The position numbers and the translations under genes are program-made. 33,651 nucleotides of DNA from Methanoregula sp. (GTDB taxonomy: Archaea > Halobacteriota > Methanomicrobia > Methanomicrobiales > Methanospirillaceae), in assembly GCA_030651815.1 (NCBI GenBank), contig JAUSBW010000127.1, forward strand, positions 1 to 33,651, given 5' to 3'. Of this stretch, positions 2,391 through 17,995 are shown piece after piece. Every line of letters begins with the position of its first letter. The first letter of the stretch is position 1. Below the pieces are notes generated by a model, which saw nothing but the letters and a program-made list of their open reading frames with translations, was not told where the DNA came from and ran no database searches.

Positions 2391-4478
2391 TTAAATGAAC
2401 AGCGGTGCAAAGACCACAGCTACGATCGCCATCAGTTTGATTAAGACGTTGAGCGCCGGACCTGCGGTGTCCTTGAACGGGTCCCCGACCGTGTCACCGG
2501 TAACTGCCGCCATGTGTGCAGGTGAGCCCTTTCCGCCGAGGTGACCCTGTTCTATGTATTTCTTCGTGTTGTCCCATGCGCCACCGGTGTTTGCCATCAT
2601 GACGGCAAGGATAAAGCCGCAGGCGATTGCACCGATGAGGAGTCCGGCAAGTGCAGCAGTCCCGAGAACCAGTCCGCAGACCACAGGCGCAAGGATTGCC
2701 ATGAGGCCTGGGATTATCATCTGCCTGAGTGCGGCGTTGGTGGAGATCGTGATGCAGGCATCATAGTCGGGATCCGCCGTACCTTCCATGAGACCGGGGA
2801 TCTCCTTGAACTGCCTGCGCACCTCCTGTACGATGTCACCTGCTGCCTTGCCGACAGCGGTCATGGCAAACGAGCAGAAGAGGAAGGGGAGCATTGCACC
2901 GATCAGGACCCCGATAAAGACTACCGGGCTGAGGAGGTCGACAAGCGGGAGGCCGACTGCAGCCGTGTATGCGATGACAAGGCCGAGAGCGGTAAGTGCG
3001 GCACCCCCGATGGCAAAGCCCTTGCCGATCGCTGCGGTTGTGTTGCCGACCGCATCAAGGGTGTCTGTGATCTCCCGGACGCTCTTATCCTGGTGGGACA
3101 TCTCGGCAATACCCCCGGCATTGTCCGCAACCGGGCCGTAAGCGTCAACAGAGAGGGTGATGCCCAGTGTGGCGAGCATGCCGACACCTGCAATTGCAAC
3201 CCCGTATAGTCCTGCCTGCTGAGCGGCAATGAGGATTGCGGCCGCGACAATGAGCACAGGAAATACCGTGCTCTCAAATCCCACGGCAAGACCGGTGATG
3301 ATACCGGTTGCTGCCCCAGTCTCCGTGGATTTTACAATCCGCTGGGTTGGCGGGCGGTCATAGGATGTGTAATACTCGGTTACAAGCCCGATTAAGAACC
3401 CTCCGACCAGTCCTGCAACTGTGGCAATAAATACCCCTACATAGAGGGGGCCGAGAAGTGTAACCACTAGGAAATAGGTGGCAATCGCGGTGATGATCAG
3501 GCTGGCAAACGTGCCCGCGTTGAATGCCTTGTGAATCGCGCTGCTCTCGTTCTTGGAACTCCTGACAAAGAACGAACCGATCACGGAAGCGATAATCCCC
3601 ACAGCAGCAATCAGCAGCGGGAGGAGGACCAGGTTCATGACACCGGCTGCGTCCGGAACGACATTGATTGCGGAACCGAGCGTCAGATGGATGGTGTCCA
3701 TCAGGTTGGCAGCCTTGGATGATGCAATCATGACCGCGACAGAACCGCCGATCAGCATGGTTGCAATTATGGATCCGCAATAGGATTCATACAGGTCGGC
3801 ACCCATGCCGGCGATATCGCCCACATTATCCCCGACATTGTCGGCTATGACTGCAGGGTTGCGGGGATCATCTTCCGGGATCCCCGCCTCGAGCTTTCCG
3901 ACAAGGTCGGCACCGACATCAGCGGCTTTCGTGAAAATCCCTCCGCCAACACGGGCGAAGAGCGCAATTGAACTTGCACCAAGGGAGAATCCCGAAAGAA
4001 TATTGATCACTTCATAAATACCAACAGTCGTGAAGGCATCAACCACATAAAAGACAACCGAGAGCCCGAGCAGGCCGAGTCCGACGACCGTCAGGCCCAT
4101 GACCATACCGCTGGAGAACGAGACGCGGAATGCGGCGGCCATCCCCGTTTTCGCAGCATGGGTTGTGCGGACATTTGCCATGGTTGCCGCAGTCATACCG
4201 ATATACCCGGCTGTTGCTGACAGGGCTGCACCTACTAAGAAACACCCGGCAGTCAGGGGGTTAATCGCAATGGCTAGAACAACTGCCATGATCACGACAA
4301 AGATCGCAATCGCGGTATATTGACGTTTCAGGTACACCATCGATCCCTTGTGTATCGCTGCTGCAATCTTCTGCATCAGTTCAGTACCGGTACCCTCTTT
4401 TTTCATGTTGAAAAAAGAAAAAGCTGCAAAAAGCAACCCAATAATGGCACATACAGGTGCAATTATCAACAAATCCAT
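2391..4478 (-). CDS. hppA: membrane-bound pyrophosphatase, K+-dependent, Na+-pump type
   Basis: A 695-residue polytopic membrane protein that hydrolyses cytoplasmic pyrophosphate and pumps a cation outward. The substrate-binding motifs are intact: DVGADLVGK (187-195), [20 protein letters not shown] (202-221), and a C-terminal block with [17 protein letters not shown]. At the site that decides potassium dependence ([14 protein letters not shown]) residues 482 and 485 are Ala and Gly, the K+-dependent state; K+-independent enzymes have Lys and Thr. The gate Glu is at 231 in GADLYESY, as in Na+-pumping members such as Thermotoga, and not four residues later as in plant H+ pumps. So a Na+ pump, or a mixed Na+/H+ pump, is inferred. 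Length is normal. A Shine-Dalgarno and TATA-like box precede the ATG at 4478. It is divergent from the mbh operon. Confidence 0.96.
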
Positions 4479-5045: not shown

Positions 5046-5573
5046 GTGATTGCATTTCTCGTAACTGCGGGTATGGCGTTTCTCCTGTACCTGGTATTGA
5101 CTGCCGGCTCGGGCACTATCGGGTTATGGTCGTTATCTGAACTTGTCATGGGAGCCCTGCTCGCACTGCTCACCGGCCTTGTTGCACGAAAATTCCTGTG
5201 CAGGTCAGAGAGTTACCGGCTCCTTTCCCCCCTTCGGTTATTGCTTCTGCTGGTCTACGTGCCGGGCCCCTTCTTCATCGAGCTGACAAAAGCCAACCTT
5301 GATGTGGCATACCGGGTCATCACGATGAAGATCAGGCCCGGTATCGTGCGGGTGCATTCGGGACTGAAGACCGATCTGGGCATCTTCATGCTGGCAAACT
5401 CGATCACCCTGACACCGGGCACCCTTTCTGTAGGGATTGATGAAGAGACAAACGATCTCTTCATCCACAATATCAATATCGCTGAGGGGGATGAGAAGAG
5501 AGAGGTGATAGAGAGCACCGAGCTCTTCGGGCTTGCAAACCTCCCCGCATGGATACGGAGGATTGCCGAATGA
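5046..5573 (+). CDS. mbhA: Mbh hydrogenase subunit A, MrpE-like
   Basis: A 175-residue MnhE/MrpE-family protein, first gene of the membrane-bound hydrogenase operon. Two or three hydrophobic segments fill residues 1-75, including a PGPFFIELTKANLDVAYRV segment typical of the family. A soluble C-terminal domain follows (LANSITLTPGTLSVGIDEE, residues 118-136). In Mbh-type complexes this subunit belongs to the sodium-translocating Mrp module. The start is GTG at 5046, chosen because AAGGTGAG lies 4 bases upstream and no ATG fits. The stop overlaps the mbhB start in an ATGA arrangement. Confidence 0.93.
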   Translation: MIAFLVTAGMAFLLYLVLTAGSGTIGLWSLSELVMGALLALLTGLVARKFLCRSESYRLLSPLRLLLLLVYVPGPFFIELTKANLDVAYRVITMKIRPGIVRVHSGLKTDLGIFMLANSITLTPGTLSVGIDEETNDLFIHNINIAEGDEKREVIESTELFGLANLPAWIRRIAE

Positions 5574-5827
5574 TCGATGCCTGGATCCTTGCAGTCCTGT
5601 GCCTTGTTGTTCTCATGGTACTCGCAACCGTCAGGCTGGTGATCGGGCCGACAGCTCCTGATCGTGTGATAGCGCTCGATACAGTGAACACCCTCGTAAT
5701 TGCGTCAATGATCCTCCTGGGAGTGGTGTATAAGGAGATTATCTTCGTTGACGTTGCGATCGTGTACGGGCTGCTCTCGTTTGTGAGTACGCTGTACATT
5801 GCCAAGTATATCGGGGGGGAGCTCTGA
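5570..5827 (+). CDS. mbhB: Mbh hydrogenase subunit B, MrpF-like
   Basis: An 85-residue protein with three transmembrane helices, of the MnhF/MrpF family. The family hallmark RLVIGPTAPDRVIALDTVNT (about residues 22-41) is intact and is followed by a hydrophobic segment with VYKEIIFVDVAIVYGLLSFV. It belongs to the ion-translocating Mrp part of the hydrogenase. The start at 5570 overlaps the mbhA stop by four bases (ATGA); an upstream in-frame ATG at 5549 lies inside mbhA and is less likely. Confidence 0.93.
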   Translation: MIDAWILAVLCLVVLMVLATVRLVIGPTAPDRVIALDTVNTLVIASMILLGVVYKEIIFVDVAIVYGLLSFVSTLYIAKYIGGEL

Positions 5828-5828
5828 C

Positions 5829-6188
5829 ATGACAGCTGTTGAAATACTTATTTACGCATGCCTTGCCATCGGTGTTGTCTTTAACTCGCTCGGGGTGATC
5901 GGGCTCCTGCGGTTTCCTGACGTGTACACCCGTATGCATGCGACAACGAAGGCAACCACGTTTGGCTCGATCTTCACGTCGCTTGCCGTGATTGTGTATG
6001 GATTTTTTATGTTTTTATCACAGGCCGACAGCCAGTACCTCATCCTTGCCATCCATGCATTTTTGGCAGCTGCATGCCTTGCATTCACAAATGCAGTCAG
6101 CGCCCATGCGATTGCGCGTGCCGCCCACAGGAGCGGGATTATGCCAACACCTGCAGTCGTCGACCGGCTGGCGGAGGCAAAACTATGA
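5829..6188 (+). CDS. mbhC: Mbh hydrogenase subunit C, MrpG-like
   Basis: A 119-residue MnhG/MrpG-family membrane protein with three helices. The family block NSLGVIGLLRFPDVYTRMHA (about residues 18-37) followed by TKATTFGS is diagnostic. It is part of the sodium/proton antiporter module that the hydrogenase shares with Mrp antiporters. The ATG at 5829 is one base past the mbhB stop; the upstream in-frame start at 5799 would overlap mbhB by 29 bases. The stop overlaps the mbhD start by four bases. Confidence 0.93.
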   Translation: MTAVEILIYACLAIGVVFNSLGVIGLLRFPDVYTRMHATTKATTFGSIFTSLAVIVYGFFMFLSQADSQYLILAIHAFLAAACLAFTNAVSAHAIARAAHRSGIMPTPAVVDRLAEAKL

Positions 6189-6439
6189 TCGAACAGATTC
6201 CCCATATTCTGGTACTGCTAGGGCTGATCGTCTCGGCAATCCTGACCTTTCATTTCAAGGACCTGCTGGCAGCAACACTTGCGGCGGGTCTCTTTGGTTT
6301 CCTGATATCGCTGGAATTCTATATCCTGCAGGCCCCTGATGTTGCGATATCGCAGGCTGCTATCGGTGCCGGCCTGACGACAGCGATCTTTATCATTGCG
6401 ATCCGGGCAACCGGGCGGTTTGAGGGGGAAAGTTCATGA
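6185..6439 (+). CDS. mbhD: Mbh hydrogenase subunit D, DUF4040 family
   Basis: An 84-residue protein with about three membrane helices, corresponding to the stretch of MrpA found as a separate small subunit in Mbh (DUF4040). The conserved LQAPDVAISQAAIGAGLTTAI (around residues 45-65) marks the family. In the Pyrococcus complex this subunit lines the presumed sodium path next to MbhE. The ATG at 6185 overlaps the mbhC stop and the gene's own TGA overlaps the mbhE ATG, so translation is probably coupled. Confidence 0.9.
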   Translation: MIEQIPHILVLLGLIVSAILTFHFKDLLAATLAAGLFGFLISLEFYILQAPDVAISQAAIGAGLTTAIFIIAIRATGRFEGESS

Positions 6440-6723
6440 AAAAGATGTTCGTTGTGGTCGCATCCCTCCTCATCCTTGCCGCATTTTTCGGGGTGATGGC
6501 AATGACGCTGACGTTTGGCTCGCCGATGGTGACGGACATGGATGACTACTTCCTCCGGCACGGGCAGGAGCAGACCGGCAGCAACAACCAATGCACGGCC
6601 GTAGTCTTCGATTTCAGGGCCTTTGATACCCTCGGGGAATCGACCGTGCTGTTCTGCGGTATTATGGGCGCGGCGCTGATGTTCCGGAAGATGCAGGGGG
6701 GTGAGGAATATGAGGATGAGTAG
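6436..6723 (+). CDS. mbhE: Mbh hydrogenase subunit E
   Basis: A 95-residue protein with an N-terminal membrane helix, a loop and a second helix. The segment NNQCTAVVFDFRAFDTLGES (residues 50-69), followed by TVLF, is the recognisable signature of MbhE and of the matching MrpA C-terminal region. It acts with MbhD in the membrane arm. It overlaps mbhD by four bases, and its C terminus (GGEEYEDE) overlaps the start of mbhF by 14 bases. Confidence 0.88.
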   Translation: MKKMFVVVASLLILAAFFGVMAMTLTFGSPMVTDMDDYFLRHGQEQTGSNNQCTAVVFDFRAFDTLGESTVLFCGIMGAALMFRKMQGGEEYEDE

Positions 6724-7177
6724 GATTGTGCGGACAGCAGCAGATCTCCTCTACCCGGTGATCCTGATCTTCGGGCTGTATATTGTGGCGCACGGCCACC
6801 TGACTCCAGGTGGAGGGTTCCAGGGCGGCGCTGTGATTGCAACCGGCGGGGCGCTGGTCATTGTCGCATACAGTTATAAGGAAATCAGCGGGTGGCTGAA
6901 AAAGAATGTCCTGCTGGGACGGGAAGTGATCGGGCTTGTCGGGTTTATTGGCGTGGGGCTCCTCGCACTTGCATTCGGGCAGGTGTTCTTCTTCAATTAT
7001 CTTGCCGGCAGCGGCTCACTCTTCGGGATGCCGGTTCCGTACGGGATCAATGCCGGTGAACTGAATACTGCAGGAGTAATCCCGCTCATGAACTTTGCAG
7101 TCGGGATCGAAGTATGGGGGGGGCTCACAATCGTGATCCTCTACATGCTTTCCGGGCTGGAAAAGGAGGGGTGCTGA
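6710..7177 (+). CDS. mbhF: Mbh hydrogenase subunit F, MrpB-like
   Basis: A 155-residue MnhB/MrpB-family protein with four membrane helices. It carries the family signature YIVAHGHLTPGGGFQGGAVI (about residues 22-41) near the first helix. It is part of the Mrp module. The ATG at 6710 is preferred because GGTGA precedes it by five bases; GTG at 6701 and ATG at 6716 are also in frame. The gene ends one base before mbhG. Confidence 0.93.
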   Translation: MRMSRIVRTAADLLYPVILIFGLYIVAHGHLTPGGGFQGGAVIATGGALVIVAYSYKEISGWLKKNVLLGREVIGLVGFIGVGLLALAFGQVFFFNYLAGSGSLFGMPVPYGINAGELNTAGVIPLMNFAVGIEVWGGLTIVILYMLSGLEKEGC

Positions 7178-7178
7178 A

Positions 7179-7523
7179 ATGCTCTGGAACCTGCCATTCA
7201 TCACCGTGGTTGTCCTGACCCTTATTGGCCTTGTGACCGTCCTGTTAAAAAAGAACATCATCAAGATCCTCCTTGGCCTCAACATCCTGCAATCCGCGGC
7301 AAACCTTTTTATCGTAGCGCTTGGCTACCGCGAGGGAGGTGTCGCCCCAATCTTCACGCTTGCACCATCGGAGCTGATGGTGATGCCCACACCGCAGGCA
7401 CTGGTGCTGACCTCGATCGTGATCGGGGTAGCAACAAGTGCGCTGGTACTCTCGTTTGCCATGGTGCTGCAGAAAAAATACGGTACTGTAGACATCGATA
7501 AGATACGGAGGCTCCACGGATGA
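7179..7523 (+). CDS. mbhG: Mbh hydrogenase subunit G, MrpC/NuoK-like
   Basis: A 114-residue MnhC/NuoK-family protein with three membrane helices. The block KKNIIKILLGLNILQSAANL (about residues 24-43) and then PTPQALVLTSIVIGVATSAL are typical of MrpC. NuoK homologues help form the proton path beside the large antiporter subunits. The start is ATG 7179, one base after the mbhF stop, and its TGA overlaps the mbhH ATG. Confidence 0.94.
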   Translation: MLWNLPFITVVVLTLIGLVTVLLKKNIIKILLGLNILQSAANLFIVALGYREGGVAPIFTLAPSELMVMPTPQALVLTSIVIGVATSALVLSFAMVLQKKYGTVDIDKIRRLHG

Positions 7524-9097
7524 CATTTGCTGATTTCATCATCACCAATGCACCGGCGCTGCTGATAGTTGTCCCTCTGTTTGCGGCATTCCTCTGTCCG
7601 GTCATTGGAAAGATTTCCACAACGGTCAGGAACTGCTGGGTGATGGGGATGATGCTCATCACCGCAGCCATTGCATTCATCCTCGCTTATAGGGTGTTTG
7701 CAACCGGGCCCGTGCTCTACGTGTTCGGTGCCGCTGCCACGAATCTTGCCGTCCCGCTGGATTCCGGGGGTATCCCCATCCGGATTATCTTCATGGTCGA
7801 TGCGATGAGCGCGTTCATGGGGATCATCTGTGCGATTGTCGGGGTATCGGTCCTGTTGTATTCACTGTCGTCAGAGTCCCGCAACAGCAGTCTTGAGGGA
7901 TATTACACCCTGTTTTTCCTGATGATTGCCGGTGTCTTCGGGATGGTCTCTACCGGGGATATCTTTAACTTCTTCGTGTTTTTAGAGATTCTCTCCCTTG
8001 CATCAGCAGGGATGATCGCGTACCGGGTTGACGGGGGACTTGCTGTAGAGGCAGCACTGAAGTATCTCGTCCTGTCCACGCTCGGTGCGATCCTCGTCCT
8101 GTTTGCCATAGGCATCTACTATGGAGAATACAATGCGCTCAATATCGCGATGATTGCCCAGCGGATGCAGTACACAATGCTGGACAAGATCGCACTCGTC
8201 TTAATTGTCGCTGCGCTTGCGATGAAGTGCGGTGCCGTGCCCCTGCACTTCTGGACACCGGATGCCTACTCCCGGGCCCCGTCATCAGTAACCGCATTTT
8301 TAGTGGTTGCAAGCCAGGCAAGCCTGTATGGGCTCTTCAGGGTTGTGTTCACTATGTACAACGTGACCATGAACTGCGTCACCGTGGGCTGGATCATCAT
8401 TATTCTCGGAGTGCTTTCCATGGTCGTTGGGGTCACGATGGCAATTCCCCAGAAAGATATCAAGCGCTTAATGGCATACCATGCGGTCTCCCAGACCGGA
8501 TATATGCTTCTTGGTGTCGGTGTCGGGCTTGCGGTACTTGGCAATGTCGCACTCACCAGTGCATTCGGGTTTATGGCTATGGAAGGGGGCATCTTCCATA
8601 TCTTCAACCATGCGATGTACAAGGGGCTCCTCTTCCTGACTGCAGGAGCAATAGTCTACCGGATCGGAACCCGCGACCTGAACAAAATGGGCGGGCTCGG
8701 GCACACCATGAAGTACACCATGATCTTCTTCATTATCGGGGCACTCGCCATTGCAGGAATCCCACCCCTCAACGGTTTCGCATCAAAACTGATGATCTAC
8801 GAGTCCGTTTACCTCTTCAACCCGATCCTTGCGATCATTGCTATGGTTGTTTCCATCCTCACCCTCGCCTCGTTTGTCAAGGTCTTCCATTCGGTATTCA
8901 TGGGGCCACAGCTTCCGGAGTATGCAGAGGTTAAGGAAGCCCCTCTTCCGATGCTGATCGGTATGGGCATTCTTGCTGCCATCTGCATCCTCTTCGGGCT
9001 GTTCCCGCAGCCGGTGGTGGACATGCTTGTCGCCCCTGCCGTCCATGCGCTTGCAGACCAGGGCGGGTATATCGCATCTGTGCTGGGAGGTGCCTGA
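7520..9097 (+). CDS. mbhH: Mbh hydrogenase subunit H, MrpD antiporter-like
   Basis: A 525-residue, roughly 14-helix protein of the proton-conducting quinone oxidoreductase/MrpD family (NuoL, M, N homologues). Charged residues inside the membrane that are essential in this family are visible: Glu156 in FFVFLEILSLAS, Lys236 in MKCGAVPLHFWTPDAY, and His364 and Lys368 in FNHAMYKGLLF. A further conserved block is QKDIKRLMAYHAVSQTGYM (about 311-329). It is the main cation-translocating subunit of the complex. It overlaps mbhG by four bases and is followed one base later by mbhI. Confidence 0.96.
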   Translation: MTFADFIITNAPALLIVVPLFAAFLCPVIGKISTTVRNCWVMGMMLITAAIAFILAYRVFATGPVLYVFGAAATNLAVPLDSGGIPIRIIFMVDAMSAFMGIICAIVGVSVLLYSLSSESRNSSLEGYYTLFFLMIAGVFGMVSTGDIFNFFVFLEILSLASAGMIAYRVDGGLAVEAALKYLVLSTLGAILVLFAIGIYYGEYNALNIAMIAQRMQYTMLDKIALVLIVAALAMKCGAVPLHFWTPDAYSRAPSSVTAFLVVASQASLYGLFRVVFTMYNVTMNCVTVGWIIIILGVLSMVVGVTMAIPQKDIKRLMAYHAVSQTGYMLLGVGVGLAVLGNVALTSAFGFMAMEGGIFHIFNHAMYKGLLFLTAGAIVYRIGTRDLNKMGGLGHTMKYTMIFFIIGALAIAGIPPLNGFASKLMIYESVYLFNPILAIIAMVVSILTLASFVKVFHSVFMGPQLPEYAEVKEAPLPMLIGMGILAAICILFGLFPQPVVDMLVAPAVHALADQGGYIASVLGGA

Positions 9098-9098
9098 A

Positions 9099-9446
9099 AT
9101 GGATCTGTTTGCACCGTTGCTGACCGGATATGGTATATGGGCTCCTGTTGTCTGGCTGGTGGCATTTATCGCTGCTTTTATCGTGGTGTACCTGATCTGG
9201 AAAACGGGAGAATCCTCATACAAGAAAGGAACCGAGCTGGAGCGCCCCTACCTTTCCGGCAATGCAGAACCGGAGAAGGGAGCAGTCCATATCAGGGCCA
9301 GTAACCTGTACTGGGGATTTTTGCAGGCACTAAAAGGTTATTATGATGTCCTTGTGCCTTTACATACGGGTGTCCTGACCGATTATATGATCTGGTTTGT
9401 TGCAGTAACCGCGCTGCTTCTCGTAATCGTGGGAGTGCTATCATGA
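9099..9446 (+). CDS. mbhI: Mbh hydrogenase subunit I
   Basis: A 115-residue protein with two membrane helices (about residues 13-33 and 92-112) joined by a hydrophilic middle containing KGTELERPYLSGN and LYWGFLQALKGYYDVLVPLH. This matches MbhI, which in the Pyrococcus complex bridges the Mrp-like and hydrogenase halves of the membrane arm. The ATG at 9099 follows the mbhH TGA by one base. The stop overlaps the mbhJ ATG by four bases. The longer in-frame version from 8973 lies inside mbhH and is rejected. Confidence 0.88.
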   Translation: MDLFAPLLTGYGIWAPVVWLVAFIAAFIVVYLIWKTGESSYKKGTELERPYLSGNAEPEKGAVHIRASNLYWGFLQALKGYYDVLVPLHTGVLTDYMIWFVAVTALLLVIVGVLS

Positions 9447-9874
9447 AACTGACAAAATCCTTCAACCGTTCGCTCTGGGTGTTCCACCTCAACACCGGCT
9501 CCTGCAATGGCTGCGAGATCGAGATTGTGGCGACAATAACCCCGCACTACGACCCAGAGCGCTTTGGCATAAAGCTGGTGGGCTCGCCAAAGCATGCCGA
9601 CGTACTTCTGGTGACCGGGCCAGTGACGAAAATGATGGCGCCGAAAGTCCGGAGGGTGTACGAGCAGGTGCCCGATCCCAAACTGGTCATGTGCATCGGG
9701 TCGTGCGGCCAGTCCGGTGGGGTCTTTTATGACTCGTACAACCTCGACGGGCCAATCGATCAGGTAATCCCCGTAGACGTGTATGTTCCCGGGTGCCCCC
9801 CCCGTCCAGAGGCAATCATCTACGGGGTTGTAAAGGCCTGGGAGAAACTGGAGCGCCTGGAGGCAGCGCAATGA
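9443..9874 (+). CDS. mbhJ: Mbh [NiFe]-hydrogenase small subunit, NuoB/EchC-like
   Basis: A 143-residue cytoplasmic small subunit that carries the proximal [4Fe-4S] cluster next to the NiFe site. The expected ligands are present: Cys21 and Cys24 in GSCNGCEIE, Cys88 in CIGSCGQSGG, and Cys118 in VPGCPPRPE. Length fits the compact group 4 (Ech/Mbh/NuoB-like) form; the signal peptide and extra cluster domain of uptake hydrogenases are absent, as expected. It overlaps both neighbours by four bases. Confidence 0.96.
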   Translation: MKLTKSFNRSLWVFHLNTGSCNGCEIEIVATITPHYDPERFGIKLVGSPKHADVLLVTGPVTKMMAPKVRRVYEQVPDPKLVMCIGSCGQSGGVFYDSYNLDGPIDQVIPVDVYVPGCPPRPEAIIYGVVKAWEKLERLEAAQ

Positions 9875-10509
9875 ACGAAACACCGCACCTCTCCCCAATG
9901 GAGATTATCGATCTCTACAAAACGGAATTCGGGGCAGGTATTCACGATGCCCGGATCACCGAACGCGGGGAAGGGGTACAGAAGACGAAGGGCTACAATC
10001 TCTGGATCAGGGTCGACCGGGAACTGCTCAGGCCCGCTATCAAAAAACTCATGGATATCAGGTTCCCGCATTTAGCGGTAATCGCAGGAAATGATCTCGG
10101 GGATGAGATTGAACTTCTCTATATCTTCTCTGTCTTCTATGGCACGAAATTCGGTGAGTATATGGTAACCTTCGGGATCCGTCTCCCGAAAACCGACCTG
10201 ACCGTCCCTACCATCACCGATCTCATACCCGGGGCCCTGATATCGGAACGCGAAAAACAGGAATTTTTTGGCATCACGGTAACTGATATCCCCGATGGGC
10301 GCAGGCTTTTCCTTCCCGATGATTTCCCGCAGGGTGTGTATCCCTGGAGAAAGGATGAAACCGGGATAAAACCCGAGATGATTAAGGAACTCTGGGCTAT
10401 CAACCGGCCAAAGGATCGCCCGGCACCCCCGGTTCCGGAAAAGAAACCCGTAATGGAAGTGCCGGCAGCTGAAGGAGAGGAGAGAAAGACCGGAGGCGCA
10501 GCAGAATGA
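9871..10509 (+). CDS. mbhK: Mbh hydrogenase subunit K, NuoC-like 30 kDa subunit
   Basis: A 212-residue soluble subunit of the NuoC/EchD family, a structural partner of the large subunit. The family signature lies near the C-terminal half: ALISEREKQEFFGITVTDIP (122-141), then a PDDFPQGVYPWRK segment. The last 35 residues are a Pro-, Lys- and Glu-rich tail, probably disordered. The start at 9871 gives an ATGA overlap with mbhJ; an in-frame start at 9793 would lie inside mbhJ. It overlaps mbhL by four bases. Confidence 0.92.
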   Translation: MNETPHLSPMEIIDLYKTEFGAGIHDARITERGEGVQKTKGYNLWIRVDRELLRPAIKKLMDIRFPHLAVIAGNDLGDEIELLYIFSVFYGTKFGEYMVTFGIRLPKTDLTVPTITDLIPGALISEREKQEFFGITVTDIPDGRRLFLPDDFPQGVYPWRKDETGIKPEMIKELWAINRPKDRPAPPVPEKKPVMEVPAAEGEERKTGGAAE

Positions 10510-11744
10510 ACGGCGATACAACGAAAAAATCAACCCCCTATACGGTCCCTATCGGACCGGTACATCCAGCCTTAAAAGAGCCGGTCATGTTCAACTTCCT
10601 GATGGAAGGAGAAGTGGTCAAATCGGTGGACTTTGCTCCGGGTAATGTCCACCGTGGAATCGAATGGATGGGCATGAGGAGGAACCCGGTCCAGATCGTC
10701 CACCTCACCGACAGGATATGCGGCATCTGCGGGATTGTGCACTCGCTCTCATTTGCACGGGCCGTGGAGCAGATTGCCGAGATTGAAGTACCTCCCCGGG
10801 CCGACTACATCAGGACCATCCTGCACGAGCTCGAGCGGATGCAGTCACATCTTCTGTGGGCAGGAGTGGCTGCCCACGAACTCGGTTTTGATTCGCTTCT
10901 CTTCCTTACATGGCGGGTGAGGGAGCAGTCGATGGACCTTATCGAGAATCTCACCGGGAATCGGGTGAACTACGGGATTGTCCAGATCGGCGGCGTCCGC
11001 AGGGATATCAGTAACGACCAGATCCTGTTAATTGAACAGGGTCTTGCCTATTACCGGGGGCTGCTTGACCAGATGAAGACCGTCTTTCTGGACGACAGCA
11101 CCATACGCATGCGGTGCCGGGGCCACGGTCTTTTGAGCTACCGGGATGCCCAACTCCTCTGTGCAATCGGGCCGACTGCACGGGCATCGGGTCTTGCCAT
11201 GGATGTCCGGCACGATTATCCCTACTGTGCCTATGGGGACCTCGATGTCCAACCCGTGCTCCCCCCGCAGGAATTCGGGGGACCTCAAGGGGATGTGTAT
11301 GACCGGATCATCGTAAGGCTCCTTGAGATCGCCCAGTCCATCGATATTATCCAGCAGTGCCTCGATTCGATGCCTGCCGGAGAGGTCCTCTGGGAGAAGA
11401 AGCTGCCCAAACTGCTTTCCATCCTGAAAAAAGCTCATGGTGAGGCAATTGGCCGGGTGGAGGCCCCGAGAGGCGAATGCATGCACTATGTCCGTATGGA
11501 TGGAAACGATGCCCCGGCAACCTGGAAGGTGAAAGCCTCCACCTACAGCAACCTGATGTCCTGGATCCCCATGCTCAAAGGCGAGCAGCTGGCAGACGTC
11601 CCCATCATCGTGGCATCCATTGATCCCTGTATGTCCTGTACCGACCGGGTGACAATTATCCGGAACGGTTCTGCAGATGACCTGACCAAAGAAGATCTGA
11701 CGCAGCTTTCCCGTGAGAAGACAAGGAGGTTTTCACGATGCTGA
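10506..11744 (+). CDS. mbhL: Mbh [NiFe]-hydrogenase large subunit
   Basis: A 412-residue catalytic subunit of group 4 type, where H2 is oxidised or formed at the NiFe centre. The two CxxC pairs that bind nickel and iron are present: RICGICG (Cys72, Cys75) and DPCMSCTDR (Cys375, Cys378). Conservation of all four cysteines separates it from the related NuoD and F420H2 dehydrogenase subunits, which lack them. A 31-residue extension follows Arg381 and could be removed by the HycI-type protease encoded just beyond the operon. The last residue is Cys412. It overlaps mbhM by seven bases, with a strong AAGGAGGT for mbhM inside its own end. Confidence 0.97.
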   Translation: MNGDTTKKSTPYTVPIGPVHPALKEPVMFNFLMEGEVVKSVDFAPGNVHRGIEWMGMRRNPVQIVHLTDRICGICGIVHSLSFARAVEQIAEIEVPPRADYIRTILHELERMQSHLLWAGVAAHELGFDSLLFLTWRVREQSMDLIENLTGNRVNYGIVQIGGVRRDISNDQILLIEQGLAYYRGLLDQMKTVFLDDSTIRMRCRGHGLLSYRDAQLLCAIGPTARASGLAMDVRHDYPYCAYGDLDVQPVLPPQEFGGPQGDVYDRIIVRLLEIAQSIDIIQQCLDSMPAGEVLWEKKLPKLLSILKKAHGEAIGRVEAPRGECMHYVRMDGNDAPATWKVKASTYSNLMSWIPMLKGEQLADVPIIVASIDPCMSCTDRVTIIRNGSADDLTKEDLTQLSREKTRRFSRC

Positions 11745-12739
11745 CCGATCTCATCGGGACTTTGGCAGGAGCGGTTCTTGTCGGAGTTTTCGGGATACTT
11801 GTCGCATTATTCCTGATGGGTGTTGACCGGATCGTGACTGCCCGGATGCAGGCACGCATCGGCCCTCCGCTCAGTCAGCCCCTGACAGATCTGCGCAAGC
11901 TCTTCAGCAAGGAAAATGTGGTGCCCGCCAATGCCATACCCTGGCTCTTCAACATGGCACCGGTCGTAGCACTGGCGTCGGCCATCACCATCCTGCTCTA
12001 TATCCCTGTCGGTGGTTTTCCTCCTGTTCTTTCCGACGGGGGAGATCTGATACTGGTCATGTATCTCCTGACCCTGCCGGCTCTCGCACTTGTTGTCGGA
12101 GGGTTCTCTTCCGGATCACCATACGCAACAGTAGGTGCACAGAGAGAGATGGTGACCATGATCGCGTACGAGTTCCCGCTTGCCGTGGTGATCATTGCCA
12201 TTGCATGGAAACTTGCCGTTTCCGGCATCCCGCTCCCATTCCTGCTGGCAAGCGTGCAGGCGAATCCTGTCTGGGGGCTTGTGGGGCCGCTCGGGATTAT
12301 CGGTGTCCTTATCCTGTTCTTCGTCCTTATCATTGTCACCCCGGCAGAACTATCCCGCATCCCCTTCGATACACCGGAAGCCGAGACGGAGCTTGCCGGC
12401 GGGGTGCTGGTGGAGTATTCAGGAAAGAACCTTGCCCTCTTCACCCTCACGCAGGGTGTGAAGACAGTGGTCATGGCCTCGCTTGTTGTGGCACTCTTTA
12501 TCCCTTACCGGCTCTCCGCATTACTCCCGGCACCGGTCATTATGCAACCGGTTCTTGACCTGCTGTCCTACCTCGTTCTGGTGGTGCTGGTAGCTTTTGT
12601 AGCAGTAAGCCTGATCAGGGTTTCCATGGCCCGGTTCCGCATTAACCAGGTGGTCTCGATGTACTGGATGTATATCAGCATCATCGGCATTGCCGGCATG
12701 ATCCTGATTATGGTGGATCATATCCTGGGGGTGGTGTGA
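11738..12739 (+). CDS. mbhM: Mbh hydrogenase subunit M, NuoH-like membrane anchor
   Basis: A 333-residue, eight-helix protein of the NuoH/EchB family that anchors the hydrogenase peripheral arm to the membrane. The motifs ARMQARIGPPLSQPLTDLRK (35-54) and then ELSRIPFDTPEAETELAGG (204-222) with VEYSG are the family's conserved cytoplasmic loops, rich in acidic residues that link redox chemistry to ion movement. AAGGAGGT lies about six bases before the ATG. The stop overlaps the GTG codon at 12736. Confidence 0.95.
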   Translation: MLTDLIGTLAGAVLVGVFGILVALFLMGVDRIVTARMQARIGPPLSQPLTDLRKLFSKENVVPANAIPWLFNMAPVVALASAITILLYIPVGGFPPVLSDGGDLILVMYLLTLPALALVVGGFSSGSPYATVGAQREMVTMIAYEFPLAVVIIAIAWKLAVSGIPLPFLLASVQANPVWGLVGPLGIIGVLILFFVLIIVTPAELSRIPFDTPEAETELAGGVLVEYSGKNLALFTLTQGVKTVVMASLVVALFIPYRLSALLPAPVIMQPVLDLLSYLVLVVLVAFVAVSLIRVSMARFRINQVVSMYWMYISIIGIAGMILIMVDHILGVV

Positions 12740-12741
12740 CC

Positions 12742-13146
12742 ATGGTCCGCCTTCCCATGATGACGGAACTGCTCAGGCAGCTCTTCAAAAAACCGGCCAC
12801 CAACGCCTTTCCGGCCCGCTACCTCCCGCCCTCGGTGACAACATTCCTGCACAAGGTTGCACTGGGTGAGGCGGCTATCAATCCTCCAATGCCGGTGCCA
12901 CCGAAATTCCGGGGAAAGATCACCTATGACCGGGAGTCGTGCATCGGATGCCAGCTCTGCCTGAAGGTCTGCCCGGCGCATGCCATCGAATTCCTCCCGA
13001 CAACAAAGCGTGTCCGCATCTATGTTGCCCAGTGCATCTTCTGCTCCCAGTGCAATGACATCTGCCCGAAGGATTGCCTGCATATGACTGATGAGTTCCT
13101 GCTCGCTACGGAAAACCGGTTTGCAGACTGTCAGATTGTGGAATAG
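12742..13146 (+). CDS. mbhN: Mbh hydrogenase subunit N, 2x[4Fe-4S] ferredoxin-like (NuoI)
   Basis: A 134-residue NuoI-like electron-transfer subunit, last gene of the operon. Two clusters are encoded: CIGCQLCLKVCP (Cys67, 70, 73, 77) and CIFCSQCNDICP (Cys98, 101, 104, 108). It passes electrons between soluble ferredoxin and the small subunit. I start it at ATG 12742; GTG at 12736 in the same frame would overlap mbhM by four bases and is a fair alternative. A T-run follows 25 bases after the stop. Confidence 0.95.
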   Translation: MVRLPMMTELLRQLFKKPATNAFPARYLPPSVTTFLHKVALGEAAINPPMPVPPKFRGKITYDRESCIGCQLCLKVCPAHAIEFLPTTKRVRIYVAQCIFCSQCNDICPKDCLHMTDEFLLATENRFADCQIVE

Positions 13147-13774: not shown

Positions 13775-15649
13775 CTACGAATGCAGTTTCTGGAGATCGA
13801 CTGACACAGCCCGAACCGGTGTCGGGTCTCGTTTCATCGGACGTACGTTCGCTCCTTCCATCTCTCCCTCTGCCCATGCAAAACGTTCCCGGATGGTAGG
13901 TGGGAGCTCTTTCTCATCGATCGGGACGAATCCGTAATTGCCATAGAACTTCGAGAGATTCCAGACCGAATGCATGTAGAGTATATCCTGCCCGCACGCC
14001 TCGACAAGTCCCCACATGACCGCATTTGCGTACCCGTGACCACGCTGGCTGACCGGAGTAAATACGCCATCCACTTCAAACCCGTCCGTATGCCGTTTGC
14101 ACCGGGCAATAGATACTGCCTGTGCCCCATAAAACGCCGCAAAGATACGGTCTGTCGTGGGATCACCCTTCGTGTTGTGGTAATCGATCCATAGCGACTC
14201 TGCAATGAAAAACTCCAGAGAAACCAGTTCCCTCACGGTCGCACCGGTGCTGTGTTTCGAGAGATGCCGTGCCGGCACAGACAAAGACGGGAGCGGGGGT
14301 GCATCCTCATTGGTGCCCTCGAACCTGTACCCTCCGGATGGAACATGGATCAAGAACGTCGCGCCCTCCCCCTCGATCCCGGTCTCCTGTATACTCATAC
14401 CGGTCACCTCAACGATCTGGCGGCAGATGAAGAGCCCGATCCCTGCGTGCCCCCCGGCATCATACTCGAATATCTGTTGTTTCTTTCCTGCCGGGATCCC
14501 GGTGCCATCATCTCTGATACAGAGGTCAAGCCCTTCATGGGTCTCGTGATATGTGACGACAATGTTCTTCACTGTGCCGCCATGCCGTAGCGAATTCTCC
14601 GGAAGATGGGTGAGGACATCGGCAAAGAGCGGATCTGCGTAGACTTCGAGGCGTCCAGCCCAAAACCTGATCGAAACCGTACTGTCATCTGAAGGAAAGC
14701 GGGCTGAATCAAGCATCCGCTGCACACTCATCCAGACCGGTGGGAGCGCACCAAGATCCTTGTAGGACTCGGTGAGGAAAAGCTGGCGGGCAACGTTCCA
14801 TGCCAGCGTCCGGATCCGTTCGATATACGCATGTATCCCGGCATCATTGCAGTGAGCATCTGCCTCATCGACCGTCTCGATGATCTGGTCGACCGAGCGG
14901 TGGAGGTGGTCTGTAGAGAAGCGTGAAAGGAGGCTGAGTTTGTCGTTTGCTGTCTTCAACGCATGTTCGGCATGAACGCGGCTGGTGATATCGAAGAATG
15001 TGAGTATCGCCCGTTTGCCAGGGAGGGATGCAGCAGAGACAAGCACGATAAACGAGTTCTCATCCGGTAGAGAGAATCTCGTTTCAGTGGCGTATACCGC
15101 ACCCTCGCGGGAGAGCCGGTTGAAAAATTCCTGCTCCTCTTCCCCGCTCCAGATGGTCGTAATTGAAGTGCCCTTAATGTCAGCAGCTTTTCGTTTGAGA
15201 AGGTCAGCAGCTTTCCAGTTGATCTCTTCAATCGTCCGGCTGCTGCCAATATCGGCAACAAGGATGCTGCCTCCTTCCGAATTGTCAAAGAGACCTTTGT
15301 AGAGCACTTCCTGTTCACGGAGTTGGAGGGTGAGTGTAGAGATCAGCCACCCGATCACGACAATGACAAGTGTGCGCAGCAGCGCATCTATAAGAATGGT
15401 TGGCGAGGTTCCGGCAAGAAGGATTACGAAGAGGAGGTAGATAGCTCCTATGCACCCGGCGATGATGACCCCCCTGCGCGGGTACTGGTATGCGGCGATC
15501 ACAACCGGAATGTACAGGAGATGGGGGATGCCTGTCGAGATTCCAAAAAGGAGTCCGATAAGGTTGGCGAGAAGTGCAACCGCAGCCGTTCCAAGGATTA
15601 CCACATTCCAGAGAAGATCGCGCCTCTCAAACCGGGCATGGAGGTTCAT
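13775..15649 (-). CDS. membrane PAS/histidine-kinase-like protein fused to a GNAT acetyltransferase
   Basis: A 624-residue multidomain protein. Residues 12-110 hold about four membrane helices; 113-225 a PAS domain; 233-290 the dimerisation helix region; 330-440 a histidine-kinase-type ATPase with N box PENSLRHGG (350-358), DDGTGIP (380-386) and GIGLFICRQI (403-412). Residues about 470-600 form a GNAT N-acetyltransferase, with the acetyl-CoA loop RGHGYA at 536-541 and a typical NLSKFYGNYGFVP end. Related methanogen kinases usually have RHDILNQ at the phosphoacceptor; here the matching stretch reads SRFSTDHLHRS (242-252), so the His is displaced or absent. The last 16 residues resemble the DP1 tail encoded next door. 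Domain limits are approximate. Confidence 0.85.
   Translation of the reverse strand: MNLHARFERRDLLWNVVILGTAAVALLANLIGLLFGISTGIPHLLYIPVVIAAYQYPRRGVIIAGCIGAIYLLFVILLAGTSPTILIDALLRTLVIVVIGWLISTLTLQLREQEVLYKGLFDNSEGGSILVADIGSSRTIEEINWKAADLLKRKAADIKGTSITTIWSGEEEQEFFNRLSREGAVYATETRFSLPDENSFIVLVSAASLPGKRAILTFFDITSRVHAEHALKTANDKLSLLSRFSTDHLHRSVDQIIETVDEADAHCNDAGIHAYIERIRTLAWNVARQLFLTESYKDLGALPPVWMSVQRMLDSARFPSDDSTVSIRFWAGRLEVYADPLFADVLTHLPENSLRHGGTVKNIVVTYHETHEGLDLCIRDDGTGIPAGKKQQIFEYDAGGHAGIGLFICRQIVEVTGMSIQETGIEGEGATFLIHVPSGGYRFEGTNEDAPPLPSLSVPARHLSKHSTGATVRELVSLEFFIAESLWIDYHNTKGDPTTDRIFAAFYGAQAVSIARCKRHTDGFEVDGVFTPVSQRGHGYANAVMWGLVEACGQDILYMHSVWNLSKFYGNYGFVPIDEKELPPTIRERFAWAEGEMEGANVRPMKRDPTPVRAVSVDLQKLHS
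13783..13837 (-). repeat. 3'-end copy A shared with the DP1 gene tail
   Basis: The DNA around the end of the kinase-GNAT gene (13790-13837) lines up with the end of the DP1 gene (15880-15927). The best-conserved parts are TCTGGAG, TCGAC and the 12-mer CCGGTGTCGGGT (13816-13827 and 15906-15917). The encoded tails share PTP..AV.VDLQ.L. I count about 30 of 48 identical bases by eye. Confidence 0.5.
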
Positions 15650-15846: not shown

Positions 15847-17244
15847 TCACGCGAACGAGAACGTCTCAGGGAGCAGCGTCTGGAGGTCGACCACAACCGC
15901 AAGCGCCGGTGTCGGGTTCACGTTCATCTGCTTCTGGAATTTCGTCTGGGACTGCCAGGTACCGGCATTAATGCCGAGCACGCCCCGGTAGCTCGTAATT
16001 CCCTTGACATGGACATGGCCGGTATGGAGAATCTCGGGCAGCGGATCGATGATCATCCGGTCGGTCTTTCCTGCAGCAATCGGTGTCTTGCGCCCGTAGA
16101 CCGGCGCAAGGTGGCGGCGCTGGAGCATCTCCTGCATCATAAGTCCGCTCTTCTCATAGGATGCCCCGGGGATTAACCCAATCATATCATCGATCGATCG
16201 CCCGTGATACATCAGCACTCGCACGCCCTGCAGGTTGACAAGCGCCGGGTTCTCTACAAGGATACAATTGTCCGGGAATTTTTTGATGAATGCATCCGGT
16301 AACACCGGTTGCGGCTCTGCGCCACGAACCACATCGTGGTTGCCGGGTGATATGATGATCTTCATCCGCGAGGGAAGGTCGCGCATCATCGCACCGAACG
16401 CCTCGTACTGCTCATAGATGTTTTTTATCACCAGTTCGCTCTCATGACCGGGATAGATACCGATACCATCCACAAGGTCACCGGCAATCAACAGGTAGGA
16501 GAAATCCGAATCCGAGAGCCAGTCGGAAAACCGGCTCCAGCTATCCGCTAAAAAAGTGTCACTGCCTACATGAACATCCGAGATGAAGACCGCCTTTCCC
16601 GGCGTTTCGCTCCTGAACGGGGTGTTGTCGATGCGGATGTCCGGGCGGTAGAGGAGCTCGGCAAAGAAGAGTTTCCCATCACTGGAGAGCTTGCCCTTCA
16701 CTCCAATGACTTCGTCGTGGATAATCCGCTCGGCATCGGAAAAGACCGGGCGATCCTTCAAAAAGAGCACCGAAATATTTGCCGAAGAGTCCTCGATCTC
16801 GGCGATCCTGTGCCCGTTTGTGGTGGTCTTGACTTCTGTTACCATACCAATGATGGTGCACTCCTCCTGCCGGTACCGGTTGGAACGTGTCAGTGCCTCT
16901 ATGGGCATGGCGCTGCACCGGCTCCGGATCATTCCACCCAGTCTGGCGTAACGGTCGCGGAAATAGTGGAGGTAATCACCGGTACCGTTTATGGGCCCGG
17001 AAGTTCCGGCAGAGCCGCTGACCACTTCCACACTGGGATCGGTGAGAAAGCGGGTGCCGTCCCGGGTGACGGTCATGCCGGGGATGTGCTGCGCCGAGAC
17101 CACGATCGCATGGTCCGGCACACCTGCGATGATGCGCTCGATCAGGTCAGGTTCATCCTGTTCCAGGATATACCGCACCACATCGGGATGTACCTGCAGC
17201 CGCTTCTCTAAAAAAGCGAGTGTGATCTGCTGTACATCGAGCAT
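15847..17244 (-). CDS. polB: DNA polymerase D (Pol II) small subunit DP1
   Basis: A 465-residue exonuclease subunit of the euryarchaeal replicative polymerase PolD. An N-terminal helical domain (1-60) and an OB-fold region (about 125-205) are followed by an Mre11-like phosphoesterase with all metal-binding blocks: ISDVHVGSD (Asp223, His225), LIAGDLVDG (Asp256), ISPGNHD (Asn302, His303), MYHGRS (His347), and LHTGHVHVK (His410, His412). It supplies 3'-5' proofreading to the DP2 polymerase, whose gene is not here. Length is within the family range. The ATG at 17244 is the natural start. It reads towards the kinase-GNAT gene with about 200 bases between them. Confidence 0.96.
   Translation of the reverse strand: MLDVQQITLAFLEKRLQVHPDVVRYILEQDEPDLIERIIAGVPDHAIVVSAQHIPGMTVTRDGTRFLTDPSVEVVSGSAGTSGPINGTGDYLHYFRDRYARLGGMIRSRCSAMPIEALTRSNRYRQEECTIIGMVTEVKTTTNGHRIAEIEDSSANISVLFLKDRPVFSDAERIIHDEVIGVKGKLSSDGKLFFAELLYRPDIRIDNTPFRSETPGKAVFISDVHVGSDTFLADSWSRFSDWLSDSDFSYLLIAGDLVDGIGIYPGHESELVIKNIYEQYEAFGAMMRDLPSRMKIIISPGNHDVVRGAEPQPVLPDAFIKKFPDNCILVENPALVNLQGVRVLMYHGRSIDDMIGLIPGASYEKSGLMMQEMLQRRHLAPVYGRKTPIAAGKTDRMIIDPLPEILHTGHVHVKGITSYRGVLGINAGTWQSQTKFQKQMNVNPTPALAVVVDLQTLLPETFSFA
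15873..15927 (-). repeat. 3'-end copy B, DP1 gene tail
   Basis: This is the partner of the repeat at 13783-13837, at the end of the DP1 gene. It encodes PTPALAVVVDLQTL (residues 444-457). It is probably the source copy, since this strand-like segment closes the DP1 phosphoesterase domain. That direction is inference. Confidence 0.45.
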
Positions 17245-17377
17245 GGATACTATATCGTCAACTGAGAAAATATAGGATACCGTCCCTCCGGTAATTCCGA
17301 GCCTCTCACCGAAATTACGGGGGATTTATTGCCCTCTCCCGCACACGTGATCATAGCTTAGGTCACGGACGGCACCC

Positions 17378-17995
17378 ATGTATGACATACTCCAGACATT
17401 TTCTCTCGGACTGGTGATCGGTCTTACCGGTGCCCTTGCACCCGGGCCTATGCTGGTGGCTACGATCAATGCATCGATCTCCGGTGACTGGAAGATCGGT
17501 CCGAAAGTGGTCGTCGGTCATATGATCGCAGAGAGTGTAATATTTCTCCTGATCGTTCTGGGGCTTGCAACACTCGCCCTCCCCTATACCACAGCTATTG
17601 CTGTGATTGGCGGGATTGCACTGATTGTATTTGGGGCGCTGACGATCGCAGGAAGCCGGGAAGCTTCCATAAACGGCCCGGTGACAGGGACTGCCGGCAA
17701 TCCGTATGTAGCCGGGCTGGTCACCAGTGTGGCAAATCCCTATTTTTGGATCTGGTGGCTAACCATCGGCAGTGCCATGGTAATTGCCGGGCTTGCGGGT
17801 GGTATTGTCCTTGCAGCAGTCTTCATGGTGGGGCACTGGTGTGCAGATATTGGGTGGTTCACGCTCGTGTCTGCGGGCATCTCACAGGGAAGGACAATCC
17901 TCTCTGACACCTCTTACCGCAGGATCATGGGAGTGTGCGGTGTATTTCTCATCCTGTTTGGGGCATACTACCTCTCGACACTATTTGTGCCGTGA
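17378..17995 (+). CDS. LysE/RhtB-family membrane exporter
   Basis: A 205-residue, six-helix membrane protein of the LysE amino-acid exporter superfamily. The N-terminal signature GLVIGLTGALAPGPMLVATI (about residues 11-30) matches the family's PGP motif. The middle carries NGPVTGTAGNPYVAGLVTS and then NPYFWIWWLTIG, both typical. The substrate cannot be told from sequence; archaeal members are usually annotated only as translocators. The ATG at 17378 gives the N terminus usual for the family. Divergent from the polymerase gene across 133 bases. Confidence 0.88.
   Translation: MYDILQTFSLGLVIGLTGALAPGPMLVATINASISGDWKIGPKVVVGHMIAESVIFLLIVLGLATLALPYTTAIAVIGGIALIVFGALTIAGSREASINGPVTGTAGNPYVAGLVTSVANPYFWIWWLTIGSAMVIAGLAGGIVLAAVFMVGHWCADIGWFTLVSAGISQGRTILSDTSYRRIMGVCGVFLILFGAYYLSTLFVP

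Follow-up and report, generated by a model that had tools for sequence, protein, structure and literature searches.

A kinase-like membrane protein without the phosphoacceptor histidine, fused to a GNAT domain in Methanoregula: a possible sensor-acetyltransferase

The usual output of a two-component system is phosphotransfer to a receiver, and a histidine kinase (HK) that runs on into an acetyltransferase raises the question of how its signal would be read out. Such a gene lies in the window, the whole 33,651-nucleotide stretch of Methanoregula sp. DNA analysed here (GCA_030651815.1, contig JAUSBW010000127.1). An initial annotation of the sequence proposed that the protein senses a signal and answers by acetylation and not by phosphotransfer. 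We put the probability that it is a one-piece, membrane-anchored, pseudokinase-gated sensor-acetyltransferase at roughly 0.5. The membrane helices, PAS domain, kinase ATPase and GNAT domain reported for this locus do share one uninterrupted frame, laid out as follows:

13775..15649, minus strand: sensor-acetyltransferase gene, 624 aa, single open frame with an ATG start and 0 internal stops, orthologues known
15323..15649, minus strand: N-terminal membrane domain, residues 1-109, four predicted helices (low-confidence model), weak DUF4118 likeness (E=0.006, under the cut-off)
14984..15241, minus strand: PAS domain, residues 137-222, Pfam PAS_9 (E=6.4e-9)
14750..14971, minus strand: DHp-like two-helix region, residues 227-300, from model and profile alignment
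14894..14917, minus strand: degenerate H box STDHLHRS, residues 245-252
14909-14911, minus strand: Asp247, at the phosphoacceptor position of the H box
14906-14908, minus strand: His248, at the +1 acid position of the H box
14336..14620, minus strand: HATPase_c (CA) domain, residues 344-438, Pfam E=2e-13, ATP-site motifs intact
14240..14317, minus strand: variable linker, residues 445-470
13814..14239, minus strand: GNAT acetyltransferase domain, residues 471-612, from profile, fold and conserved residues
Residues 536-541, in the GNAT domain: RGHGYA acetyl-CoA loop, with Glu525, Asp527 and Tyr569

The full-length structure model is poor (mean pLDDT 48.9) and was used for helix order only; in the low-confidence monomer model the DHp consists of two helices, 247-265 and 270-298.

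The fusion is a real gene shared among relatives. Kinase and whole GNAT stand in a single frame in 20 of the 22 type-A loci (the window, L081-L100 and L208). L091 (genome G132) has an in-frame TAG at 4071-4073, within the GNAT start of its type-A orthologue, which may be a nonsense change or a gene split, and in L208 the frame goes into the GNAT and then meets a run of N. Because the single-contig genomes G017, G020, G102 and G125 contain the fusion, it is no assembly artefact; together with the open frame in the window and its orthologues, this rules out a frameshift or an assembly chimera, and with it the idea that the GNAT part is a separate gene. A search for the same domain order in other archaea found it in Methanoregula and other Methanomicrobiales loci, the named relatives being Methanoregula and other Methanomicrobiales MAGs, and none was found in viral contigs. 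For residue counts, five genomes present twice among 43 orthologue rows were reduced to one row each, leaving 38 distinct orthologues (L001 includes L009, L002 includes L010, and L014 was kept outside the counts because its frame is broken early). Between the window and five orthologues, dN was below dS in every domain, and four of the five comparisons had their highest dN in the linker (445-470).

What has become of the H box was read from a profile alignment (hhalign) of 17 type-A proteins with 15 sister kinases, in which the whole membrane-PAS-kinase part aligned at 100% probability and STDHLHRS fell gap-free on TRHDILNQ. Asp247 is therefore in the phosphoacceptor place and His248 in that of the following acid. 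The sister kinases of the genus, about 450 aa long (e.g. L241, 447 aa), share the membrane-PAS-DHp-CA order; they differ from the fusion in carrying the canonical TRHDILNQ, in ending where the GNAT begins (at about residues 447 and 454, within the linker region, in the two GNAT-less sisters checked) and in having no GNAT of the clade in the fetched flanks. Among 18 such sisters from 18 genomes, all 18 have the acceptor His. In the 38 distinct orthologues the acceptor position holds Asp in 35, Glu in two and Gly in one (L015) and never His (0/38); position 248 holds His in 37 and Tyr in one (L026); and position 250 holds His in 26, Gln in nine and Asn in three. The initial annotation was right that the usual H box is replaced and its His out of the expected place, and the possibility that would have overturned it, His248 in the canonical position, is not what the alignment gives, since His248 sits one place on. 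It asked whether His248 or His250 occupies the acceptor position; the alignment places neither of them there, but Asp247. Of the two, only His248 is conserved, and His250 is ruled out as acceptor because 12 of the 38 orthologues have Gln or Asn in its place.

The near-invariance of the Asp-His pair suggests, from conservation, that the position still does something. One way to account for it is that the H-D dyad has been swapped to D-H, with His248 phosphorylated, Asp247 as helper, and phospho-His248 regulating the GNAT or being passed on. His248 in 37 of 38 orthologues, Asp or Glu at 247 in 37 of 38 and the invariant ATP site all fit such a displaced phosphoacceptor. The flanking pattern, however, stays in the canonical register, and one residue further on a helix faces elsewhere; L026 and L015 break the dyad at 248 and 247, respectively. 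Moreover, in the His-less HKs of the related forms described below, 31 of 31 rows keep Asp at +1 and their acceptor column shows N, S, R, D, T, I, L or Q, so there is no D-H swap there. We consider a displaced phosphoacceptor unlikely. The +4 residue has changed as well: 18 of the 22 type-A loci, the window among them, have Arg, and all 19 control rows, made up of 18 sister kinases and one further HK, have the Asn of HDxxxN. Asn or Thr at +4 from the acceptor is the phosphatase-type residue.

The N and G boxes, reported as intact, are so without variation in the 38 distinct orthologues: Asn352 of the N box, Asp380, Gly382 and Gly384 of G1, and Gly403 and Gly405 of G2. Judged from these alignments, the classical acceptor is gone while the predicted ATP site is conserved, and His248 is the odd conserved residue. 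Pseudo-histidine kinases of this general kind are known. In DivL of Caulobacter the acceptor His is replaced across homologues and the core repurposed, with Tyr at the acceptor position and weak ATP binding (PMC4211667); the sensor described here shares the replacement across homologues but has Asp in that position, keeps its ATP motifs intact and ends in a GNAT. In Methanosarcina acetivorans, the MA_type 2 proteins RdmS and MsmS lack the H box, bind and hydrolyse ATP and show no autophosphorylation (PMC11784639). These, too, are methanogen HK-like proteins without a classical H box, but they are described as completely lacking the H-box region, whereas by comparison with that description the helix here aligns gap-free and only its residues are replaced; neither GNAT nor acetyltransferase occurs in the text of that paper. 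Their authors suggest phosphate transfer to another target (PMC11784639), and a similar activity could be imagined here, in which ATP is hydrolysed and its phosphate goes to a different residue or a different protein, perhaps to the fused GNAT. The ATP site, intact in sequence, and the ATP hydrolysis of MA_type 2 kinases without autokinase activity (PMC11784639) would agree with this; a Pfam search of the 624-aa protein at E up to 1 returned neither a receiver nor an Hpt domain, which speaks against it, and we hold such a kinase to be distinctly improbable.

The C-terminal part is a complete GNAT domain with the RGHGYA motif, as first reported. In a single-sequence Pfam scan it is weak (Acetyltransf_10, residues 501-579, E=0.003, under its cut-off), and Acetyltransf_1 is matched by all 13 GNAT domains scanned, the window's included, with E values of 0.5 or lower (0.05 for the window, 4e-10 at best). 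Modelled alone, this part reached a mean pLDDT of 76.6, gave 167 Foldseek matches in the PDB at E<=0.001 and had a best Z of 14.7 against solved structures, the nearest of which include ElaA, N-acetylglutamate synthase and SACOL1063. The fold neighbours cover protein and amino-acid acetyltransferases, with many GNAT families within 1-2 Z of each other, and a family missing from the list is not thereby excluded. The acetyl-CoA loop motif of GNATs is Q/RxxGxG/A, which RGHGYA fits. Glu525, Asp527, Arg536, Gly539 and Tyr569 are present in 62 of 62 HK-coupled GNATs; among the 38 distinct orthologues the GNAT residues were readable in 35 (all save L025, L091 and L208). By analogy with GNATs in general, Glu525, Asp527 and Tyr569 are candidate catalytic residues. 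The presence of N-acetylglutamate synthase and small-molecule GNATs among the fold neighbours would suit a constitutive metabolic enzyme for which a decaying kinase scaffold is no more than a membrane anchor. Decay is hard to square with dN below dS in the PAS, DHp and CA domains, with invariant ATP-site residues and with a GNAT that is repeatedly paired or fused with one kinase clade, and we give this reading little credence.

That pairing emerged from a census of the family. Searched alone, the GNAT domain had matches at E<=1e-12 in at least 142 of 199 genomes from the order and at E<=1e-8 in 66 of 392 from the phylum, each of these 66 being the own genome or belonging to its genus, family or order; no second match of the GNAT clade was present in the window's genome among the matches listed at either threshold (E<=1e-12, E<=1e-8). 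About 4 kb around the matches of the 66-genome search were taken as loci L081-L210. Together with the window these contain 142 GNAT-bearing frames, of which, with HKs and GNATs alike counted as stop-to-stop frames and not as called genes, 24 are fused to an HK, 24 have an HK directly upstream and 50 have none, while 16 USP-GNAT frames have an HK directly upstream and 28 do not. Two Usp stretches were found by Pfam in each of the three USP-GNAT frames checked (3/3). In L101-L115 an HK gene lacking the acceptor His directly precedes the USP-USP-GNAT gene, and in L101-L103 a stop codon and a few codons separate the two.

The acceptor His is absent in 53 of the 64 GNAT-partner HKs and kept in 11, and its loss is therefore not required for coupling to a GNAT. 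What replaces it varies with the form: HKs of the window's clade have D or E, those preceding USP-USP-GNAT have N, S, R or D, and those of the operon form mostly have T. Neighbouring HKs that are not partners have His in 31 of 33 readable rows and lack it in two (35 rows in all, two without a residue at this column). Among the best 30 of 66 HATPase matches in the window's genome, the other HKs gave 27 rows, 22 with His and five unreadable. A Fisher test of His loss against partnering gave p=7e-14 with rows treated as unrelated; a kinship-corrected test had one independent pair only.

The reason lies in the trees. All 64 partners fall on one side of the HK tree (SH-aLRT 99). A more careful tree used 87 rows after thinning: 18 loci with near-copies, eight long-branch loci (one of them L159, a partner whose acceptor position holds Gln) and alternate loci of the series L224-L240 and L241-L258 were omitted. 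It again divides 45 partners from 41 non-partners, and because a single divergent row (L247 8281) falls outside both sets, two changes rather than one are needed for the two groups. Within the partner clade of this tree, at least two changes between His and not-His are needed. In the GNAT tree, built without eight of the 142 GNAT ORFs that were too short or partial, one clade of 63 rows contains 62 HK-coupled GNATs (the exception is L157) and the other, of 71 rows, contains none; HK-GNAT fusion requires at least three changes on its starred branches. As partnering arose once on the HK tree, its tie with His loss is not testable with kinship removed, and we treat the association as a pattern in the sequences and not as a proven dependence. 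The trees do indicate that a private GNAT clade and a private HK clade travel together, as a fusion, as an HK beside USP-USP-GNAT or at the end of an operon.

In this last, third form, the HK-GNAT pair has an HK with intact His (REC-HK) just upstream. In 18 of the 26 operon-form loci the end of a CheA gene is found no more than 4 kb away, and nine loci were extended (L261-L269), in eight of which six genes matched in the order CheW-MCP-CheA-REC/HK-HK-GNAT. The reference for these matches was:

L265, 9515-18855: CheW, MCP, CheA, REC-HK, membrane-PAS-HK and GNAT, genes matched in the other loci

Pfam assigns to its six genes, in turn, CheW; Cache, HAMP and MCPsignal; Hpt, HATPase_c, CheW and Response_reg; Response_reg and HATPase_c; PAS and HATPase_c; and Acetyltransf_1. 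The ninth locus, L266, lies near a contig end and has no CheW match and a partial MCP; here, in the same place as L145, the HK and GNAT are fused. In L264 (G036), one of the eight loci with all six matches, an ORF on the other strand (16094-17824), which from its sequence we take to be transposase-like, interrupts the membrane-PAS kinase. That the fused protein is an orphan sensor kinase, its C-terminal GNAT being an accessory, and that it works by phosphotransfer in heterodimers with His-bearing kinases, is highly improbable: the REC-HK of the operon form and another, His-bearing HK in the fetched flanks of five of 22 type-A loci (L092-L094, L098 and L208) could supply such a partner, but the fusion has both the acceptor and the +4 residue replaced, and 17 of the 22 loci, including the 33 kb of the window, have no other HK in the stretch examined.

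We return to the pseudokinase-gated sensor-acetyltransferase. With the acceptor His lost, the ATP site kept and a GNAT as tail, the signal is probably passed on by acetylation. A signal would arrive at the membrane or PAS domain and change the nucleotide-bound, presumably dimeric kinase core; this change, and not phosphotransfer, would switch the C-terminal GNAT on or off, and the output would be acetylation of a protein or small molecule. The readout first proposed stands in part: the conserved GNAT residues, HK-GNAT pairing, His loss and dN below dS favour it indirectly, whereas 11 of 64 partners keep His and the near-invariant His248 may be a displaced phosphoacceptor. There is precedent in type III GNATs, whose N-terminal regulatory domains exert allosteric control (PMC8556138; PMC6434083). 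Like cAMP-GNAT (MsPat/MtPat) and ACT-GNAT (AAPatA), the protein has an N-terminal regulatory part and a C-terminal GNAT; unlike them, the regulatory part is a membrane-PAS-HK core (Pfam PAS and HATPase_c) and not a cAMP, NADP or ACT domain, and the allosteric control stated for type III GNATs is here inferred. One GNAT with an N-terminal ligand domain acetylates a universal stress protein (PMC8556138; PMC6434083), a parallel to the USP-USP-GNAT form that may be worth a test, no more.

In most HKs of the partner clade the acceptor is lost and the ATP site remains, and a private acetyltransferase either adjoins the kinase gene or forms part of the same protein. More tentatively, and at somewhat less than even odds, they could form a signalling branch of the Methanomicrobiales in which HK cores, many of them acceptor-less, control a dedicated acetyltransferase clade in three forms: a fused protein, an HK with USP-USP-GNAT, and a chemosensory operon with acetylation, and not motility or transcription, as output. 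If true, this would be a direct link from sensor to acetylation in archaea, where the roles of acetylation have been called poorly understood (PMC12607858), and the chemosensory-operon form would allow genetic testing in any tractable carrier species. Neither acetyltransferase nor GNAT occurs in the main text of a 2018 archaeal two-component census (PMC5847659) or in the text of a survey of CheA architectures (PMC10542144), nor does 'acetyl' in that of an archaeal chemoreceptor survey (PMC9680633). No HK-GNAT protein or operon was described in the titles and abstract openings searched, a set outside which most subscription papers, and supplements, fell.

Genomic neighbours were dropped as a clue to function. 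A hydrogenase maturation protease gene lies on the same strand 66 bp downstream of the sensor's stop codon; a search of 25 further type-A loci gave no match to it, and matched the small subunit of DNA polymerase D in five, all within the genus. Antisense frames contaminated a clustering of the flanks based on stop-to-stop frames, which serves as a lead only. In the window, an energy-converting hydrogenase-like cluster with Mrp-type antiporter subunits (5046-13146) converges on the sensor gene, and a paralogous complex (49 kDa subunit about 40% identical) occupies the same side in five further loci of the genus. A frame that reads from its sequence as peptide methionine sulfoxide reductase-like lies near the fusion in 11 of the 22 type-A loci (L087-L089, L093-L096, L098-L100 and L208), perhaps a link to oxidative stress.
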